From positions 1,113,093 through 1,177,092 of the forward strand of contig CP076745.1 in the NCBI GenBank assembly GCA_019262145.1: a stretch of DNA of 64,000 nucleotides, written 5' to 3'. The stretch's first letter is position 1; every line of letters begins with the position of its first letter. Position numbers and translations under genes: made by a program. Source of the DNA: Candidatus Methanogranum gryphiswaldense. GTDB taxonomy: Archaea; Thermoplasmatota; Thermoplasmata; Methanomassiliicoccales; Methanomethylophilaceae. The notes beneath the pieces were generated by a model. That model ran no database searches. It had not been told where the DNA came from and saw only the letters and a list, made by a program, of their open reading frames with translations. Below, in pieces: positions 8,180 through 53,290 of this stretch.

Positions 8180-9096
8180 CAGATCGTCCCCGTGATTGCA
8201 ATATATTCTAATAAATATCCTATGACCAATAATAATCCAAAATGCCAATTCAATTTGAATGACATCGGCACAAGAAGCCTGCTATTTTTTTCATTCTGAG
8301 GGGCCTTTTTACTATTTAAGAAAAGCAAATAGAGATCATATAGGGTTATGAATGCCAAAGCACATCCCCAAGGAACAACCCCTGTTAGAATTATCAACGC
8401 AAGTATCGGGAAAGATATCATGTTTAAAAAAATGTACAGACGCATACTGTTTTGATAAGATAAACGTCCAGATAATGTTCCCACTTTGGACTTCTTATCC
8501 TCATAGTAATCTCTGGTCTCATTACCACTTAGAACCGCGGTTATCATGAAGGCGTTCGGTAATGACATTATAATAACTTCCCATGAGTATCCACCTGTAA
8601 GTACCAGATACGTACCCACTGGCATTAACAGACCCATGAGTATGAAAACACCAAAAAGCCCCATTGAATGATATTTATACGAAACACCTATCGTATATAG
8701 AGCGGCCCCCCCGATACCGAGGATCCCAATCAATAGGATCTGCCAGCCCGCATACCATATGAACACAAGACCCAGTAAAGCAGTGATACCCAAACAGACG
8801 AGCCCCATGAGTAATATCTGCTTCGGTCTCATGATCCCTGAAACAAGTTCTGGGGACCTGGTATGATTCTCTTCAGTATCCGTGCCTTTCACATAATCCC
8901 CATATGTGTTCAACAGGTTCGCTGCAGATTGCAAAAGACAACCCCCTACCAGTATGAGAACGAATATCCACCAGCAGAACGAACCGTCCTTCCAAGCTAC
9001 TGCCCCTCCAATGAGTATGGGTATTACTGCCCCGTGAAGCGTCCATGGCCTGAATGCATTGTACCATCCTGCCCTCACAGGCTTGATGTCTTCCAT
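8179..9096 (-). CDS. UbiA/MenA-family prenyltransferase
   Basis: 305-residue integral membrane protein with eight to nine hydrophobic segments. Two Asp-rich prenyl-diphosphate/Mg binding loops of the UbiA superfamily are visible: NLLNTYGDYVKGTDT (about 60-75) and GNETRDYYEDKKSKVGTLSG (about 192-211). The second loop and the TLSGRL tail resemble MenA (1,4-dihydroxy-2-naphthoate prenyltransferase) more than archaeal DGGGP synthases. It is followed without a gap by a UbiE-like methylase, the usual last two steps of menaquinone-type synthesis. No other men or mqn genes are in the window, so menaquinone production is not shown. A methanophenazine-like or other lipid electron carrier is possible. 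Confidence 0.8.
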   Translation of the reverse strand: MEDIKPVRAGWYNAFRPWTLHGAVIPILIGGAVAWKDGSFCWWIFVLILVGGCLLQSAANLLNTYGDYVKGTDTEENHTRSPELVSGIMRPKQILLMGLVCLGITALLGLVFIWYAGWQILLIGILGIGGAALYTIGVSYKYHSMGLFGVFILMGLLMPVGTYLVLTGGYSWEVIIMSLPNAFMITAVLSGNETRDYYEDKKSKVGTLSGRLSYQNSMRLYIFLNMISFPILALIILTGVVPWGCALAFITLYDLYLLFLNSKKAPQNEKNSRLLVPMSFKLNWHFGLLLVIGYLLEYIAITGTI

Positions 9097-45697: not shown

Positions 45698-47638
45698 TTG
45701 ATACAACCTGAATTATACATATGTGTGCTTTTTATTCCTGCGGTCATCGGCGCCGCGATTTCTTTGATACCTTCAAAATCAAAGATCGTTAAAACTTTAA
45801 GCATGATATTCTGCGCCATCTCTTGTATCGCAGGTATAGCTGCATTCTTCGTAGCCAGCGAGCTTTCCTCTACCATTTACGTATTCAAACTGCAATCTCT
45901 TCTCGGAGTGTACAGCATTCAGTTCGATCAACTTTCTGCTTTGACCATTAGCTTCTCATCTTTGGTATATTTAATGGTCCTCATACACATGTGGAGATCT
46001 GGAACATCATACACCAACAAAATGTTCGGATTGGTCTGTATACTTTTCATTGCCTGTTCTGTAGCCATGTGCGCGAACAGCATCATACTCCTGATGATAT
46101 CCTGGGAATTAGTCACTCTGACAACCTTCCTCATGACCAAAGGAGCAGATGAGAATTTCAGATGGAAATACTTCGTCATCACTCATTTCGGTGGACTCAT
46201 TATAATGTCCGTATTTGCTGCAATGTGGTACGTATCTGGAACCGAAATACTATCAGATATGAGCATAGGACCTCTTGTAGGTTCCATGACCTCCGCCGTC
46301 ATGATACTTTTACTCTTCATAGGATTCGGTACAAAACTGGGACTCATGCCTTTCCATGCATGGATGCCAGATCTATACAATTCCGCGCCAGTGCATTCGG
46401 TCGCATTCCTTTCTACAGTCTGCTCCAATGTCGCCATACTGCTTCTGATCAAGAGCTCGTTCCTTTGGATAGGGATACCAGATAACATCACGATGATGTT
46501 CATGATACTCCTTCTTGCTTCGGTAGGTGCCATATGGGGGGCAATGGAATCACTCATACAAACAGAACCAAGACGCATACTGGCATATTCAAGTATGGAA
46601 AATATGTCCATGGTCATCCTTTGTCTTTCCATGGGAATGATATTCGCAGTAACCGACTTCGACAAGAATCTCCTTCCATTGATACTCGTTGCGGCGATAC
46701 TGCATACGATCAACCACTCTTTCTTCAAATCATTGATGTTGCTGAATGTGGGCACCATAGAAAATTCGACCGGAGAACACTCCATCAACCGTATGGGCGG
46801 ACTTGCAAAATTCATGCCGTTGCTTTCAGTGTTCGCACTTGTAGGTACCCTTTCGATGGCCGCCATACCTCCTCTTAACGGATTCGTAAGCGAATGGCTA
46901 ATGATCAAGACCGTCGTAACTGCAGGAACAGGCGAATCGATATTGAATATCGTACTGCCGCTCATAATAGCAGTACTTGGTGTTTGTGGAACTATGGCCG
47001 CAGTATCATATGCCAGACTTTATGGTTTTATATTCCTGGGACGCCCCCGTTCTGAAAGTATGAAGAACGCGAAAAAAATGGACAAGGTCACGGCCCTTCC
47101 TCTGTTCATCTTGTCTGGTGCATGCATATTACTAGGTGTATTCGCAATGCCTGTCATATACGCTATAATAAACAGCATCTGTAGCACATTGGGTATAGAA
47201 TATACCACAGGCAGTATTGTATCAGATGCGCTCAAACCAATAATGATCGCGGTGATACTTGCATCGATATGCATAATCCTATACCTATCGTTCAGATTAC
47301 TGAAGAAAAATAAGAGAAAAACACCAACATGGGATTGCGGTATAGAACTTGACCAAAACATGCAATACTCCTCCGAAGGATTCACCCAGCCTCTCGTAAA
47401 AGTATTTCATCCGATATATGGCGACGAGAGCGAGATAAAAGATGTCATTGGAGGAATGGATACATTCAAGATCAGCTTCTTAGAGCCTTTCTCATACTAC
47501 ATACTCAGACCGATAGGAAGATCCGTAGAATGGCTTTCCCTCAAGGTCGGAAAGATACAGACCGGTAACATCCAATCATATCTGGCATATCTAATGATCA
47601 CTCTTCTCATAATTCTATTGGGGGTCAGATTCTTTTGA
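45698..47638 (+). CDS. Ehr-type complex antiporter-like subunit (HyfB/NuoL family)
   Basis: 646-residue membrane protein with about 16 helices, homologous to Mrp/NuoL-type subunits of hydrogenase 4. The proton-channel lysine/glutamate helices are seen in WELVTLTTFLMTKGADENF and the FGTKLGLMPFHAWMPDLY loop. The start is a TTG at 45698 in a TTGA overlap with a small upstream ORF and with AGGTGATC as ribosome site. It heads a six-gene operon of overlapping genes. It probably pumps H+ or Na+. Confidence 0.88.
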   Translation: MIQPELYICVLFIPAVIGAAISLIPSKSKIVKTLSMIFCAISCIAGIAAFFVASELSSTIYVFKLQSLLGVYSIQFDQLSALTISFSSLVYLMVLIHMWRSGTSYTNKMFGLVCILFIACSVAMCANSIILLMISWELVTLTTFLMTKGADENFRWKYFVITHFGGLIIMSVFAAMWYVSGTEILSDMSIGPLVGSMTSAVMILLLFIGFGTKLGLMPFHAWMPDLYNSAPVHSVAFLSTVCSNVAILLLIKSSFLWIGIPDNITMMFMILLLASVGAIWGAMESLIQTEPRRILAYSSMENMSMVILCLSMGMIFAVTDFDKNLLPLILVAAILHTINHSFFKSLMLLNVGTIENSTGEHSINRMGGLAKFMPLLSVFALVGTLSMAAIPPLNGFVSEWLMIKTVVTAGTGESILNIVLPLIIAVLGVCGTMAAVSYARLYGFIFLGRPRSESMKNAKKMDKVTALPLFILSGACILLGVFAMPVIYAIINSICSTLGIEYTTGSIVSDALKPIMIAVILASICIILYLSFRLLKKNKRKTPTWDCGIELDQNMQYSSEGFTQPLVKVFHPIYGDESEIKDVIGGMDTFKISFLEPFSYYILRPIGRSVEWLSLKVGKIQTGNIQSYLAYLMITLLIILLGVRFF

Positions 47639-48573
47639 TGGAATTCATTGTTACAGCTTTGCAGGCGATATTCCTCATCGCAATATCCCCGCTGATAACG
47701 GGAATTATAAGGAAATTCAAAGCCTGGATGCAACACCGCGAAGGGTCTGATATATTCCAGCCATACAGGGACCTCATTAAATTGTTCAAAAAAGATGAGA
47801 CCATCTCTGAAAGTACGACTTGGTTGTTCCGTTTCATACCTTACATCTGCTTCTCAGCTATGACATTTTTGGCATTCATGGTCCCTGTATTCTTTGTAGA
47901 GATATTGGCACCATTTGATGACCTAATAACCATGGTATACCTTTTCACAATGTACAGATTCTGCATGGTCTTGGGAGGGCTGGAAGGAGGCTCTGTATTC
48001 GGAGGAATGGGAAGTAGCAGGGAAATGATGATGTCCGTACTTATCGAACCGGCACTTTTACTTTCTCTGATGACCGTATGCGTCCTCAGTGGGGCTGGTA
48101 CCGATATAAGCAACGTACCAACACTTCTGATGTCTATGGGGATTTTAGCATTCTGCCCGGCACTTTTACTCGCCGCTGCATCTTTCATAATAACCCTTGC
48201 TGCAGAGAATGCAAGGATCCCGTTCGATAACCCCGCAACACATCTCGAACTTACAATGGTGCATGAAGGAATGCTCCTTGAATATTCGGGAAGGAGCCTG
48301 GCACTTATGGAACTCTCTTCGATGATGAGGCTCACAATATTCATGACAATGTTGGGTACCCTGTTCCTGCCTTGGGGCATATCTATAACCACACAACCAC
48401 TGGACCTTGTTGTAGGTCTTGTCACAATAGTGGCCAAACTTGTGATATTCTCATTTGCATTGGCCCTACTGGAATGCTCTTCGACCAAATTCAGACTGTT
48501 CAAAGCACCGAACCTTCTGACAGCATCGTTCGTAATTGCGTTGCTGGCAATAATTTCGCTGTATATACTGTGA
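47638..48573 (+). CDS. Ehr-type complex subunit HyfC/HycD (NuoH family)
   Basis: 311-residue membrane subunit with eight helices. The NuoH-type loop RIPFDNPATHLELTMVHEGM followed by EYSGRSLALME is conserved and connects the membrane arm to the hydrophilic module. Its ATG overlaps the previous stop (TGATG). Confidence 0.88.
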   Translation: MEFIVTALQAIFLIAISPLITGIIRKFKAWMQHREGSDIFQPYRDLIKLFKKDETISESTTWLFRFIPYICFSAMTFLAFMVPVFFVEILAPFDDLITMVYLFTMYRFCMVLGGLEGGSVFGGMGSSREMMMSVLIEPALLLSLMTVCVLSGAGTDISNVPTLLMSMGILAFCPALLLAAASFIITLAAENARIPFDNPATHLELTMVHEGMLLEYSGRSLALMELSSMMRLTIFMTMLGTLFLPWGISITTQPLDLVVGLVTIVAKLVIFSFALALLECSSTKFRLFKAPNLLTASFVIALLAIISLYIL

Positions 48574-48582
48574 GGGAAAAAA

Positions 48583-49242
48583 ATGGATCCGACACTCTAC
48601 GAGAATCTTATCGATATCTGTGCAATATGCATGCTTGTAATATCGGTCATGGCAATAGCATCCACGCACATGAAGAAACTTGTACAGTTCTTCGCTGTCC
48701 ACTCTCTTTTCCTATCCATATTGGCATTCGTTGTCGCATACTATACTGGAAACTATCACATCTACATCATATTCGTACTGACACTTGTACTGAAGGTATT
48801 CCTTATCCCAAAATTCCTTGACTACACAATAGAAAAGATAAACATGGAAAAGGAAGTGAAATCCCAGATCGGCATTCCGGGAAGCCTACTGGTATGTTTG
48901 GTTCTGGTATTTATCGGATATCTTGTAGCCGATCCCATGCTAGACTCCCTTTCAACAGTTGGAAGAAATTGCTTTGCCATATCACTGTCAATAATCTTCA
49001 TTGGAATGTTCATGATGGTTTCCCGCAGAAATGCACTTACAGAATCGATTGGACTTCTGTTGATGGAGAACGGACTTTTCTTAGGAGCGATGACAATATC
49101 CTATGGTATGCCACTCATTGTCGAATTCGGAGTATTCTTCGATGTCATTATAGCGGTCGTAATAATCGGGATATTCGCATACAGGATCAATCGTACTTTC
49201 AACTCCATTGACACATCATTCATGAGGAGGCTGAAAGATTGA
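48583..49242 (+). CDS. Ehr-type complex subunit HyfE (NuoK-like)
   Basis: 219-residue membrane protein with six helices. The C-terminal half LLLMENGLFLGAMTISYGMP has the NuoK-like buried glutamate. It is the third gene of the operon, starting 9 nt after HyfC, and its stop overlaps the next start. Confidence 0.85.
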   Translation: MDPTLYENLIDICAICMLVISVMAIASTHMKKLVQFFAVHSLFLSILAFVVAYYTGNYHIYIIFVLTLVLKVFLIPKFLDYTIEKINMEKEVKSQIGIPGSLLVCLVLVFIGYLVADPMLDSLSTVGRNCFAISLSIIFIGMFMMVSRRNALTESIGLLLMENGLFLGAMTISYGMPLIVEFGVFFDVIIAVVIIGIFAYRINRTFNSIDTSFMRRLKD

Positions 49243-50708
49243 GCTATGAAATAGAAGCCATCCTCCTGATACCTCTACTGGCAGCGATACTATGCGGTAT
49301 CGCCCCCAAAGAACGCTTCATATCATGGGTATCAATAATCCTCTCAGCAGCCGATATGATCATTACAATCGTGATATGCGGCCCTATATTCCTAGACGGG
49401 ACCACCATACAATACAGTATATGGTACGTTGATGGTCTTTCAGCAATCTTCCTAATGGTAACATCCACCGTGGCATTCATGGTGTCGATGTATTCCCATG
49501 GCTATCTCGGGTTTGAAAGAGAAGAGAAAAAACTGACCATGAAGTCTGAAAAACTCTACTATCTCTGCCTGAATCTTTTTGTCGCTGCCATGCTTGCGGT
49601 GTTCACCGTCTCATCTGTAGGCATAATATGGATCATCATCGAAGCAACCACCTTGATATCGACATTCCTTGTAGGATTCTATCGTGACGAACAATCAACA
49701 GAAGCCTCCTGGAAATATCTGATAATCTGTTCTGTGGGCATAACACTCGCACTTGTGGGTATCTCGCTGGTATACGCATCCGCGGTCGGTGTGATAGGAG
49801 ATGAGTCATCTGCACTCGATTGGCCTGTGCTGGTATCTGTGGCCTCTCAGTTGGATCCTGTATTATTGAAAACGGCCATGGTGATGATAATAGTTGGATT
49901 CGGCACAAAAGCAGGATTCGCACCAATGCATACCTGGTTGCCCGATGCACACAGTCAAGCACCGACACCGATAAGCGCGTTATTGTCAGCAACATTGCTG
50001 AACTGTGCACTCTTTAGCATTTTGAGATTCTACATCATCTCTGAAATTGCGATACCTGGATTTGCATCGACGCTCTTACTTATTTTCGGATTTGTATCAT
50101 TATTCATTGCAGCTATGTTCATACTAAATTCCAAAGACATGAAACGCATGCTGGCATATTCAAGTATAGAACATATAGGATTGATATCTATCGGATTCGG
50201 CATCGGGACCTCTGCATCGATATTCGCAGCATTGTTCATGGTCGTGGCGCACTCTCTTACAAAGCCAATATTATTTTTCTGCGCAGGGAATATATTGCAA
50301 GAATACAAGACAAAAGACATGACTTTGATCCGCGGACTGAACAAAAATATGCCTTTTACTGCGATCATGCTGTCCATAAGTACTCTGGCAATAGTCGGTA
50401 TGCCTCCATTTGCAGTGTTCATAGGTGAATTCGCATTATTATTATCAATGATGGGTGCAGGCATGTGGTTCCTTGCAATTTTGATGGTCATACTTTTGAT
50501 AATCATATTTGCTGGTTTTACACTACATATATACCCTATGCTGACCGGAGAAACGGATAAAAAAACACATGACCCCAAAGGTCTGATACGCGCTGCACCG
50601 TTTGTCATTCTCACAACAGCCATTGTAATCTTTGGACTCTTTGTTCCAGAAAGTGTAACAAGTGGATTCAACATGGTGGCAGAAAACATATTCGAAGGTG
50701 TGATCTGA
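49239..50708 (+). CDS. Ehr-type complex antiporter-like subunit HyfF (NuoM/N family)
   Basis: 489-residue, about 14-helix subunit. The channel glutamate helix (WIIIEATTLISTFLVGFYRD) and the FGTKAGFAPMHTWLPDAHSQ loop match NuoN/HyfF. The start is TTG at 49239, overlapping the HyfE stop (TTGA), with AGGAGG eight bases upstream. A second antiporter-like subunit besides HyfB makes this hydrogenase 4-like rather than Ech-like. Confidence 0.88.
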   Translation: MSYEIEAILLIPLLAAILCGIAPKERFISWVSIILSAADMIITIVICGPIFLDGTTIQYSIWYVDGLSAIFLMVTSTVAFMVSMYSHGYLGFEREEKKLTMKSEKLYYLCLNLFVAAMLAVFTVSSVGIIWIIIEATTLISTFLVGFYRDEQSTEASWKYLIICSVGITLALVGISLVYASAVGVIGDESSALDWPVLVSVASQLDPVLLKTAMVMIIVGFGTKAGFAPMHTWLPDAHSQAPTPISALLSATLLNCALFSILRFYIISEIAIPGFASTLLLIFGFVSLFIAAMFILNSKDMKRMLAYSSIEHIGLISIGFGIGTSASIFAALFMVVAHSLTKPILFFCAGNILQEYKTKDMTLIRGLNKNMPFTAIMLSISTLAIVGMPPFAVFIGEFALLLSMMGAGMWFLAILMVILLIIIFAGFTLHIYPMLTGETDKKTHDPKGLIRAAPFVILTTAIVIFGLFVPESVTSGFNMVAENIFEGVI

Positions 50709-52165
50709 TGGAAGATGTGGACGTCCAAATAAACGATCTTAGCAATGAGATCTACAACATGATGCTGAACGGTTTTGGACTTGTCTGCATGTACGCCACA
50801 GAAAAAGAAAGTGAACAACGCTCGATACAGACCATTCTCAGAAAAGGAGGAAATGTTGTACATATGACGACAATCCTAAAATCTGATAGCTATTCTGCTT
50901 TATCTCTTGGTATCCCTCAGATCAGACCATATGAACGTGAGATGCAAGAGATGAGCGGACTCGACCCCATAGGCCTTAAAAACCATCACGGACCTCAGAG
51001 ACTCCAATGGGGTTACGTGAATGCACATCCTCTCCAAAAAGAACCGCTTCCAAATGAAAGATGTGCCTGTCCGATACCTGGTAACAGAATGTCTGGGGAC
51101 GGTGTGTTCGAAATACCCGTCGGACCGGTCCATGCGGGAATAATAGAACCTGGACACTTTAGATTCTCGGTCGCTGGAGAACCTATATTGAAAATGAGGA
51201 CCCATCTAGGATACACATATCGCGGTATCGAAAAACTGATGGAATCCTCGGCATCAGTGGATCGCACCAGAATGGTAGAACGGGTTTCCGGAGACACCTG
51301 TGTCGCCAACGCTTTGGCATATGCACATGCCATGGAAGGCGATGCAGAGATCCCCTACCGCGCAAAACTTTTAAGGACCATATTCGCAGAACTTGAAAGG
51401 ATATATTGTCATTTCGGAGATATCGGAGGAATGGCCTTGGATACTGGATTCTCGGTACCTGCTGCGTATGGTGCAGGACTGAAGGAAAAGGTCCTAAGAC
51501 TTAACGAACACATCGGCGGTCATAGATTCCTAATGGGAACAATAGTGCCCGGAGGAGTTCGCAGGGACATAACGAACGAAAGTTTAGAAGCAATAGAAAA
51601 CCGTATTCTCAAAATAAGTTTTGATATAGAGGATCTCATGGATATGCTCACAAACTCTTCTTTCTTCCTGGATCGCGCTGAAACCACAGGTATACTCACT
51701 CATGATGATGCTTTGAAATATCGTGCACTTGGACCATCTGCCAGAGCGAGTGGCGTCAAGACAGATGTAAGAAAAGAGGTACCGTATGATGCCTACAAGG
51801 ACATAGGCATGAGGATAATCTCCCATGATTCCGGTGATGTTTATTCCAGGTTATTGGTAAAAGCAGGAGAGATCGTTGAATCGACCAGTATAATAAACCA
51901 ATGTTTGGACAAAATGGAAGATGGCCCTCTCAGAACAAAAATAAGAATAAAAGATGGATTCGGCCTTGGTCTTGTGGAAGCTCCGAGAGGAGAGCTCGTT
52001 CATGCCGTGAATATCATCAACGGAAAGATCTGGAGATACAGGATCAGAGACCCCTCGTTCATAAACTGGCTTGCACTTGAGATCTCATTACCAGGAAACA
52101 TAATTCCTGATTTCCCGCTTATAAATAAAAGCTTCAATCTTTCCTACAGCGGAAATGACCTATGA
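50708..52165 (+). CDS. Ehr-type large subunit (HyfG/NuoC-D family) lacking NiFe cysteines
   Basis: 485 residues: an N-terminal NuoC/HycE-like part (about 1-125) and a NiFe large-subunit part. PVGPVHAGIIEPGHFRF is conserved. The N-terminal metal motif reads ERVSGDTC (191-198), with Ser and a displaced Cys in place of the RxCGxC pair. The C-terminal motif reads DPSFINW (448-454) instead of DPCxxC. So the four Ni ligands are largely lost and it is not expected to make or use H2. It belongs to the energy-converting-hydrogenase-related (Ehr) group; the electron acceptor is unknown. Confidence 0.9.
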   Translation: MEDVDVQINDLSNEIYNMMLNGFGLVCMYATEKESEQRSIQTILRKGGNVVHMTTILKSDSYSALSLGIPQIRPYEREMQEMSGLDPIGLKNHHGPQRLQWGYVNAHPLQKEPLPNERCACPIPGNRMSGDGVFEIPVGPVHAGIIEPGHFRFSVAGEPILKMRTHLGYTYRGIEKLMESSASVDRTRMVERVSGDTCVANALAYAHAMEGDAEIPYRAKLLRTIFAELERIYCHFGDIGGMALDTGFSVPAAYGAGLKEKVLRLNEHIGGHRFLMGTIVPGGVRRDITNESLEAIENRILKISFDIEDLMDMLTNSSFFLDRAETTGILTHDDALKYRALGPSARASGVKTDVRKEVPYDAYKDIGMRIISHDSGDVYSRLLVKAGEIVESTSIINQCLDKMEDGPLRTKIRIKDGFGLGLVEAPRGELVHAVNIINGKIWRYRIRDPSFINWLALEISLPGNIIPDFPLINKSFNLSYSGNDL

Positions 52166-52172
52166 GGTTACC

Positions 52173-52907
52173 ATGTACAGAAAAAGCATTGCTAACATGA
52201 TATCGAATACAAAACCGTGCGAATCATATCAGATAATGGAAAGCAAGAGGTTAGATATGCCTATGCCTGATGATCTGTGCGATTTGTGCGGAAACTGTGC
52301 AAAAGCCTGTTCTGGACGCGCGATCAATGTATCTGACAGATGGTCTGTGGATCTTGGTAAATGCGTATTCTGTCGTGACTGTTATGACGTATGTGAACAC
52401 ATTGTTGCCAACCCCGCTCCCCATTATGCACTTAAAAGAGAGGACCTTATTTTCTTTGCGAAAGAAGAAAAGGATGTTGAAGGCCGTTTGAGCGCAGAAA
52501 AAACATGTGGCCTAAAGAATTCGGTCGCTATCAGAGAATTAGATACCGGTTCATGTAATGCATGTGAAAATGAAGCGAATGCCATGAGTAACAAATATTA
52601 TGACATGGCACGTTTCGGTATTGAGATTAAACCCTCACCCAGGCATGCAGATGCCCTCCTTGTCACAGGACCGATGACGCGTAATATGTTGATAGCTGCA
52701 AAAAAAACATATGATGCTGTCCCTGAGAACAAACTTGTGATCGCTTGCGGAACGTGCGCTATATCAGGTGGTCTTTTTGTTGAGGGGGATGTTATTGGAA
52801 AAGGAATAAATGACACACTACCTGTAGACATCTATGTGGTCGGTTGTCCTCCAACGCCTAATGGCATCATCGTAACACTTATCAAAGCATTAGGGCTTCG
52901 TCATTGA
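52173..52907 (+). CDS. Ehr-type fused ferredoxin/small subunit (HyfH-HyfI, NuoI-NuoB-like)
   Basis: 244 residues from the ATG at 52173 (GAGGT upstream; 52155 is an alternative six codons earlier). Numbering from the 52155 ATG, the N-terminal part carries two 4Fe-4S ferredoxin motifs, C42-x2-C45-x2-C48-x3-C52 and C70-x2-C73-x2-C76-x3-C80. The C-terminal NuoB-like part has C134-x2-C137 (GSCNACENE), C198/C201 (ACGTCAISGG) and C231 (GCPPTPNG). All the cysteines needed for the proximal cluster remain. It is the electron-entry module of the complex, probably for ferredoxin. Fusion of HyfH and HyfI into one chain is noteworthy. Confidence 0.88.
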   Translation: MYRKSIANMISNTKPCESYQIMESKRLDMPMPDDLCDLCGNCAKACSGRAINVSDRWSVDLGKCVFCRDCYDVCEHIVANPAPHYALKREDLIFFAKEEKDVEGRLSAEKTCGLKNSVAIRELDTGSCNACENEANAMSNKYYDMARFGIEIKPSPRHADALLVTGPMTRNMLIAAKKTYDAVPENKLVIACGTCAISGGLFVEGDVIGKGINDTLPVDIYVVGCPPTPNGIIVTLIKALGLRH

Positions 52908-53290
52908 ACAACAATAACTGTGCATTTTGCGTTACGAACAACAGCGTCAGACACACTACCAAGAACCGCTCTATCGAAGAATGTTTTATCCGAACGTCCT
53001 ACCACTATGGCATCACATTCAAACCTCTCCGCAGCCTCCAATATTCCTTTTGCCGGAAATCCAGACCCCATAACGACTTGAACATCTGCACCGCGGTCTC
53101 TCGCAACTTTCTCAGCATCACTGAGAAATTCTTCAACCTTTGCAACTTCATTGTCATGGTCTAACTTGTCTTTGGACGCTATATCGGAGAAAATGTAGAG
53201 CTTTGTCTTATAAACCATCGAATAACCGATGGCGTATTCCAAAGCCTTTTTCGTATGTTCCATTCCATCATATGCTACCAATACTGACAT
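52901..53290 (-). CDS. Universal stress protein (UspA family)
   Basis: 129 residues. It has a UspA Rossmann-like fold with VLVAYDGMEHTKKALEYAI at the start and the ATP-binding GRSDKTFFDRAVLGSVSDAVV glycine-rich region near the end. Convergent with the Ehr operon, overlapping it by 7 nt. No specific role can be given. Confidence 0.85.
   Translation of the reverse strand: MSVLVAYDGMEHTKKALEYAIGYSMVYKTKLYIFSDIASKDKLDHDNEVAKVEEFLSDAEKVARDRGADVQVVMGSGFPAKGILEAAERFECDAIVVGRSDKTFFDRAVLGSVSDAVVRNAKCTVIVVQ

Follow-up and report, generated by a model that had tools for sequence, protein, structure and literature searches.

Energy-converting-hydrogenase-related (Ehr) complexes, reportedly defined by Coppi (2005) and Marreiros (2013), are encoded by a Hyf-type gene set in which the ligands of the nickel-iron (NiFe) centre have been lost and the antiporter-like subunits kept. 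They are known from Geobacter, Nitrospira, ammonia-oxidising archaea and the archaeal order Methanomassiliicoccales (PMC6147122, PMC10432482, PMC12342949), in the last case through a short passage on one metagenome-assembled genome (MAG; PMC6147122); with that exception, no discussion of Ehr appears in the passages available to us from the broader literature on the order. Their function is called unknown in PMC6349859, PMC10432482, PMC10284858 and PMC12342949, and expression of the Nitrospira moscoviensis complex did not rise with H2 (PMC12342949). Here we describe an Ehr complex encoded by six consecutive genes (hyfB, hyfC, hyfE, hyfF, hyfG and a fused hyfH-hyfI) on the forward strand of Candidatus Methanogranum gryphiswaldense, at positions 45698-52907 of a 64,000-base window that spans 1113093-1177092 of the single-contig, 1,516,968-base genome; unless another locus is named, coordinates refer to this window. 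A sequence-only reading of the window had proposed the complex as an undescribed system, a claim that we withdraw, since Ehr has already been named in the groups above and once in this order.

Three other systems come close. Formate hydrogenlyase (Hyc) and hydrogenase 4 (Hyf) of Escherichia coli (group 4a) contain homologues of HyfB, C, E, F, G, H and I and provide the closest solved structure, HycE, but the complex described here has no NiFe site, its cluster lacks HyfA, HyfD and HyfJ, and its large subunit has no C-terminal extension after the second nickel motif (L2). MBS, the sulfane sulfur reductase of Pyrococcus, is likewise hydrogenase-derived, ferredoxin-linked (as is predicted for Ehr) and deprived of its metal site; however, it keeps two of the four NiFe cysteines and carries out catalysis at a proximal cluster with three cysteines (PMC7684303), whereas Ehr keeps none, has a fully ligated proximal cluster (four cysteines, with a CxxC) and belongs to another lineage of large subunits. 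With the Fpo-like complex and complex I the likeness lies in distant homology of the core subunits and in a role, predicted for Ehr, as an ion pump; the Fpo-like complex is encoded at a separate locus (L003), and Ehr lacks the quinone-site tyrosine and has the CxxC where Fpo and complex I have paired cysteines.

Replacement of the nickel site in the large subunit

The large subunit, a 485-residue protein of the NuoD/HyfG type (hyfG; 50708..52165, + strand), was compared with solved structures by means of a profile built from 19 Ehr large subunits, which matched its closest solved relative, E. coli HycE (7z0s_E), with an E value of 2.5e-117 in an alignment spanning nearly the whole length. All four positions of the NiFe cysteines are substituted in HyfG, by S194, T197, S479 and G482. 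At the first nickel motif (L1), RVSGDTCVAN stands opposite HycE RVCGICGFAH, the core RVCGIC of hydrogenases having become E191-R-V-S194-G-D196-T197-C (51278..51301, +). At L2, SFNLSYSGNDL, at the extreme C-terminus of HyfG, stands opposite SLDPCYSCTDR at the end of the HycE domain; the whole element, N473-K-S-F-N-L-S479-Y-S-G482-N-D-L (52124..52162, +), ends the protein, and its NLSYSGNDL (residues 477-485) is the counterpart of DPCYSCTDR in E. coli HycE and HyfG, where hydrogenases have DPCxxC. The published definitions of the group 4a motifs, C[GS][ILV]C[AGNS]xxH for L1 and [DE][PL]Cx[AGST]Cx[DE][RL] for L2 (PMC7886697), fail in HyfG at all four cysteines. The absence of nickel ligands, first proposed from ERVSGDTC and a downstream DPSFINW, is thus borne out at L1 and at the cysteine-free L2 counterpart. 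DPSFINW itself (residues 448-454; 52049..52069, +) aligns with AATYANW of HycE, some 30 residues ahead of the true L2, and had been mistaken for the second motif, yet the conclusion of nickel loss stands because NLSYSGNDL shows it. With its nickel centre lost, the complex should not make hydrogen. This is not a general loss of hydrogenase, since the same genome, which also encodes an Fpo-like complex, keeps a canonical NiFe Ech (RVCGIC ... DPCISC).

We then compared 72 Ehr large subunits from Methanomassiliicoccales, from other Thermoplasmatota and from bacterial plasmids (Rhodococcus, Methylocalor, Paraburkholderia, Azospirillum, Rhizobium and Sinorhizobium). The nickel motifs were replaced in every one of them, and the bacterial plasmid loci shared the L1/L2 signature. 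Sixteen residues were identical in 72/72 sequences, namely A143, G144, I146, G195, D196, D245, T327, S450 and W454, and, towards the C-terminus, F469, N473, K474, S475, Y480, G482 and D484; at the majority of these positions FpoD and the NiFe references have other residues. S194 was kept in 69/72 and S479 in 71/72. Between close pairs, the ratio of nonsynonymous to synonymous substitution rates (dN/dS) ranged from 0.06 to 0.14, which corresponds to purifying selection, on the large subunit included. Because the same new residues are shared by archaeal and aerobic bacterial Ehr, we regard the site as being under selection, and the data suggest that the former metal site has been rebuilt and has not decayed. 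To judge from the hydrogenase fold, these conserved residues would surround a single cavity.

Distribution, phylogeny and a conserved neighbour

A search for the same gene set across the order, as the sequence-only reading had advised, detected it in 58 of the 147 species genomes of Methanomassiliicoccales, with internal stops in none, and in 36 of the 74 genomes of good quality. A single gene order was found in all 54 loci compared, some of them cut by contig ends. In part of two families of the order (designated f5 and f6), HyfH and HyfI seem to be encoded separately, and in other Thermoplasmatota they are mostly fused. Bacterial loci, six of which (all on plasmids) were inspected in detail, encode HyfB, C, E, F and G and a HyfI homologue without HyfH; compared with them, the archaeal loci of this phylum add the HyfH domain, mostly fused to HyfI, and a neighbouring gene for a universal stress protein (Usp). 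In a tree that contained no named Geobacter or Nitrospira Ehr references, all Ehr sequences, including those of the bacterial plasmid loci devoid of nickel ligands, formed one clade (support 100/100) with E. coli HyfG outside it. The sequences of the order clustered with moderate support (90/88), and the deeper branching order is uncertain because of several long branches. The subunits are of the Hyf/group 4 type, antiporter-like ones included. Motif, gene order and tree therefore uphold the earlier view of an Ehr-type complex whose NiFe site is lost, and the assignment to Ehr is supported as far as sequence comparison reaches. In family f1, to which the Methanogranum genome belongs, Ech was found in 7/29 genomes with Ehr and in 10/73 others (p 0.24), so that the two are neither exclusive nor linked.

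The Usp gene (52901..53290, - strand; Pfam Usp, E 1e-24) lies tail-to-tail with hyfHI, which it overlaps by 7 bases. The six-gene unit had been taken to end at 52907; the six genes hold, but the conserved unit extends to this converging gene, which faces hyfHI in 51 of 54 loci, typically overlapping it or at most 25 bases away. Genes upstream of Ehr in family f1 fell, by a rough test, into some 15 unrelated groups. Since a paralogue in genus g9 blurred the presence or absence of Usp across the order as a measure of partnership with Ehr, gene adjacency was used to establish the link. Beyond the order, an archaeon of another class (L118) has a Usp gene (8217-8612, -) inside the operon, where it lies between hyfHI and hyfB in the same orientation, and two Paraburkholderia plasmids have one just downstream of Ehr; the other bacterial loci are without it.

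A predicted ferredoxin-fed ion pump

The iron-sulfur (Fe-S) cysteines of the ferredoxin domain and the small subunit are retained, as had been observed before. The fused hyfH-hyfI product (52155..52907, +; Pfam Oxidored_q6, E 6e-26, and Fer4_7) has eight ligand cysteines in its ferredoxin-type HyfH domain (42, 45, 48, 52, 70, 73, 76 and 80) and four in its NuoB-type HyfI domain (134, 137, 201 and 231), with the CxxC spacing of hydrogenases. The four HyfI ligands and this spacing were found in 69/72 homologues; two others were truncated and one had lost the ligands altogether. A regular-expression test did not recover the canonical eight-cysteine pattern in the HyfH of part of family f6 (L077, L082-L087). 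As for the membrane part, HyfB E137, K213, H220, H340, K344 and E399 are invariant across the order and present in E. coli HyfB, HyfC E191, E205, E211 and E216 are invariant in the order, and HyfF K224, H231, D236, H338, K342 and E397 are invariant or nearly so; the antiporter-like subunits thus keep their key Lys, Glu and His residues.

We consider it about an even chance (roughly 0.5) that Ehr is a complex-I-like ion pump derived from a Hyf/formate-hydrogenlyase-type hydrogenase, fed by ferredoxin, in which conserved polar residues have taken the place of the NiFe centre. Electrons from reduced ferredoxin would enter at the two HyfH [4Fe-4S] clusters and travel by way of the proximal [4Fe-4S] cluster in HyfI to a small polar acceptor bound at the former metal place, near D196, K474, N473 and Y480; the energy released would drive export of H+ or Na+ through HyfB and HyfF. 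The complex would operate beside the true Ech hydrogenase and the Fpo-like complex of the genome. The earlier idea of a ferredoxin-linked ion pump with an unknown acceptor fits the HyfH domain, the HyfI cysteines and the invariant Lys and Glu of the pump subunits, and it keeps the status of a proposal drawn from sequence.

Several points weigh against this view. The ferredoxin donor, the reduction of an acceptor and the export of ions are all predictions. The bacterial Ehr loci compared have no HyfH, so ferredoxin is not a family-wide donor by the same route. The structure predictions of HyfG and HyfHI, made from five-sequence alignments, reached mean predicted local distance difference test (pLDDT) scores of only 43 and 37, so the pocket is placed by alignment. 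In one genome (G153, a single MAG and the sole genome of its class in the set compared), the HyfI homologue at L119 (G153:C4:26418-26936) has its four Fe-S cysteines replaced (SGSDNSTE, IGDDA, GNPP) and HyfH is missing; the same genome keeps the Ehr signature of the large subunit and an intact hyfB-C-E-F. Such a combination is hard to reconcile with electrons passing through HyfI and, if confirmed, means that the site may act without electrons.

Alternative explanations

One alternative is that Ehr works together with heterodisulfide reductase, passing electrons from ferredoxin to HdrD (or HdrBC), which would then reduce CoM-S-S-CoB; the Fpo-like complex has been proposed to act in this way. 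Families f5 and f6 include 18 loci in which an HdrD-like gene, with two CCG domains and Fer4, stands divergently upstream of Ehr (e.g. L081:346-2265), usually with a rubrerythrin gene between the two; another genome (G071) has HdrC and HdrB upstream of Ehr, and HdrD occurs in 132/147 genomes of the order. Membrane-bound ferredoxin:heterodisulfide activity has been reported for M. luminyensis, according to a reference cited in PMC7824343. However, HdrD is also found where Ehr is absent, and in the Methanogranum genome it lies far from Ehr, beside a helicase gene. To our knowledge, the aerobic bacteria that carry the same signature have no heterodisulfide pathway, which counts against this option, and the conserved signature residues would be left unexplained. 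A further point against it comes from genome G140, which keeps HdrD and is missing Ehr between rubrerythrin and Usp. We therefore judge a partnership with heterodisulfide reductase to be unlikely.

The case of G153, with its signature and hyfB-C-E-F but no HyfI ligands or HyfH, would be accommodated if Ehr were no longer a redox enzyme, the rebuilt site binding or converting a small molecule and gating ion flow through HyfB and HyfF, perhaps with Usp as a nucleotide sensor. The lack of HyfH in bacterial Ehr and the Usp gene that travels with Ehr point the same way. Nearly all other homologues keep the four HyfI ligands, though, those from archaea have a ferredoxin domain in addition, and G153 is one MAG, the single genome of its class in the set compared, all of which makes a non-redox role distinctly unlikely. 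A broader formulation, in which the family as a whole has a distinct active site, S194/G195/D196 together with NKSFNLSYSGND, replacing NiFe, workable without Fe-S clusters as in G153 and maybe non-redox, with Usp regulating the ion pump, appears to us more doubtful still.

Ehr had earlier been linked to the MenA/UbiE pair of the window, which might mean that it reduces a membrane quinone, or a lipid of that kind, produced by the pair; the two genes are genuine by family cut-offs. In family f1, MenA (matches at E <= 1e-30) was present in 27/29 genomes with Ehr and 53/73 without it, a difference with a Fisher p of 0.03 that ignores kinship and genome completeness. Yet the pair lies 37 kb from Ehr with no gene linkage, those 53 genomes of the same family carry MenA without Ehr, and no match at the 1e-30 threshold was found among the 29 Ehr-bearing genomes of f5 and f6, so that a link between Ehr and the pair is not supported. 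H142, the equivalent of Nqo4 H38, is kept, but it is kept in hydrogenases as well, and the position of the quinone-site tyrosine of complex I, Nqo4 Y87 (PMC7684303), is occupied by G195 in 72/72 Ehr sequences. A quinone-like lipid is possible in general, because UbiA has been reported in M. luminyensis (PMC4153887), with no special tie to Ehr seen; as the acceptor of this complex we hold it to be highly doubtful. Just as improbable, in our estimation, is that Ehr reduces sulfur, polysulfide or disulfide in the manner of Pyrococcus MBS, a ferredoxin-using complex that has lost NiFe cysteines too (PMC7684303): Ehr keeps 0/4 of these cysteines and a four-ligand proximal cluster of hydrogenase spacing, and its large-subunit profile scores far higher against group 4a HycE (396 bits) than against MbsL (189 bits). 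A decaying hydrogenase without function would agree with the lost metal ligands and the patchy distribution (58/147), and was rejected on the purifying selection acting on the large subunit, the lack of internal stops in 58/58 genomes and the identical replacements seen in archaeal and bacterial sequences alike, which leave it a negligible probability.

Gene calls and other neighbouring genes

The number, order and place of the six genes, as first read, were confirmed, and profiles gave the families HyfB, HyfC/NuoH, HyfE, HyfF, NuoD/HyfG, and ferredoxin plus NuoB. All lie on the + strand. The hyfB-like antiporter subunit (646 aa; 45698..47638) matches NCBIfam PRK06521 (E 2e-113), the hyfC-like membrane anchor of the NuoH family (47638..48573) Pfam NADHdh (E 3e-41), the hyfE-like membrane subunit with its NuoK part (48583..49242) NCBIfam PRK11492 (E 2e-31, under the curated cut-off), and the hyfF-like antiporter subunit (489 aa; 49239..50708) NCBIfam PRK06458 (E 5e-129). 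The TTG starts that had been assigned are plausible for HyfB and HyfF, which have good ribosome-binding sequences upstream (AGGTGATC and GAGGAGG, respectively). For HyfC, the TTG at 47635 is a less likely start than the ATG at 47638, which shares one base with the HyfB stop. Two starts are possible for HyfHI, ATG 52155 and 52173, the latter with GAGGT just ahead.

Some observations on the neighbourhood are added here. The empty site of G140 (L129; G140:C112:2719-5144) contains HdrD, rubrerythrin and Usp, the last two separated by about 150 bases in place of the Ehr cassette. The HdrD of the Methanogranum genome (L132:7219-8988; C1:22218-23987) is extended at its C-terminus by about 190 aa that include proline-rich repeats and an unknown domain, and many genomes of family f1 show open frames of similar length at this gene. 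In G125, a CcmF/NrfE-type haem lyase gene (L083:16289-18271, -; Pfam Cytochrom_C_asm, E 2.5e-27), unexpected in this order, lies directly upstream of hyfB.

Implications

The observation is real and the family is already known; what is new, and useful, is the family-wide set of residues at the former metal site and the association with a Usp gene. Ehr is widespread and, resembling group 4f/4a hydrogenases, can be miscounted as an H2 enzyme; in a 2025 study, transcripts of group 4f were attributed to Ca. Methanogranum (PMC12802149), and these may correspond to the complex described here. Mutagenesis could be aimed at concrete targets, namely the invariant residues and the association with Usp. 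Knowledge of energy conservation is still partial for the Methanomassiliicoccales, which produce methane in guts and wetlands, and about half of the good-quality genomes compared here (36/74) carry this extra pump, which, save for the short passage in PMC6147122, is omitted from the energy schemes in those parts of the literature available to us.

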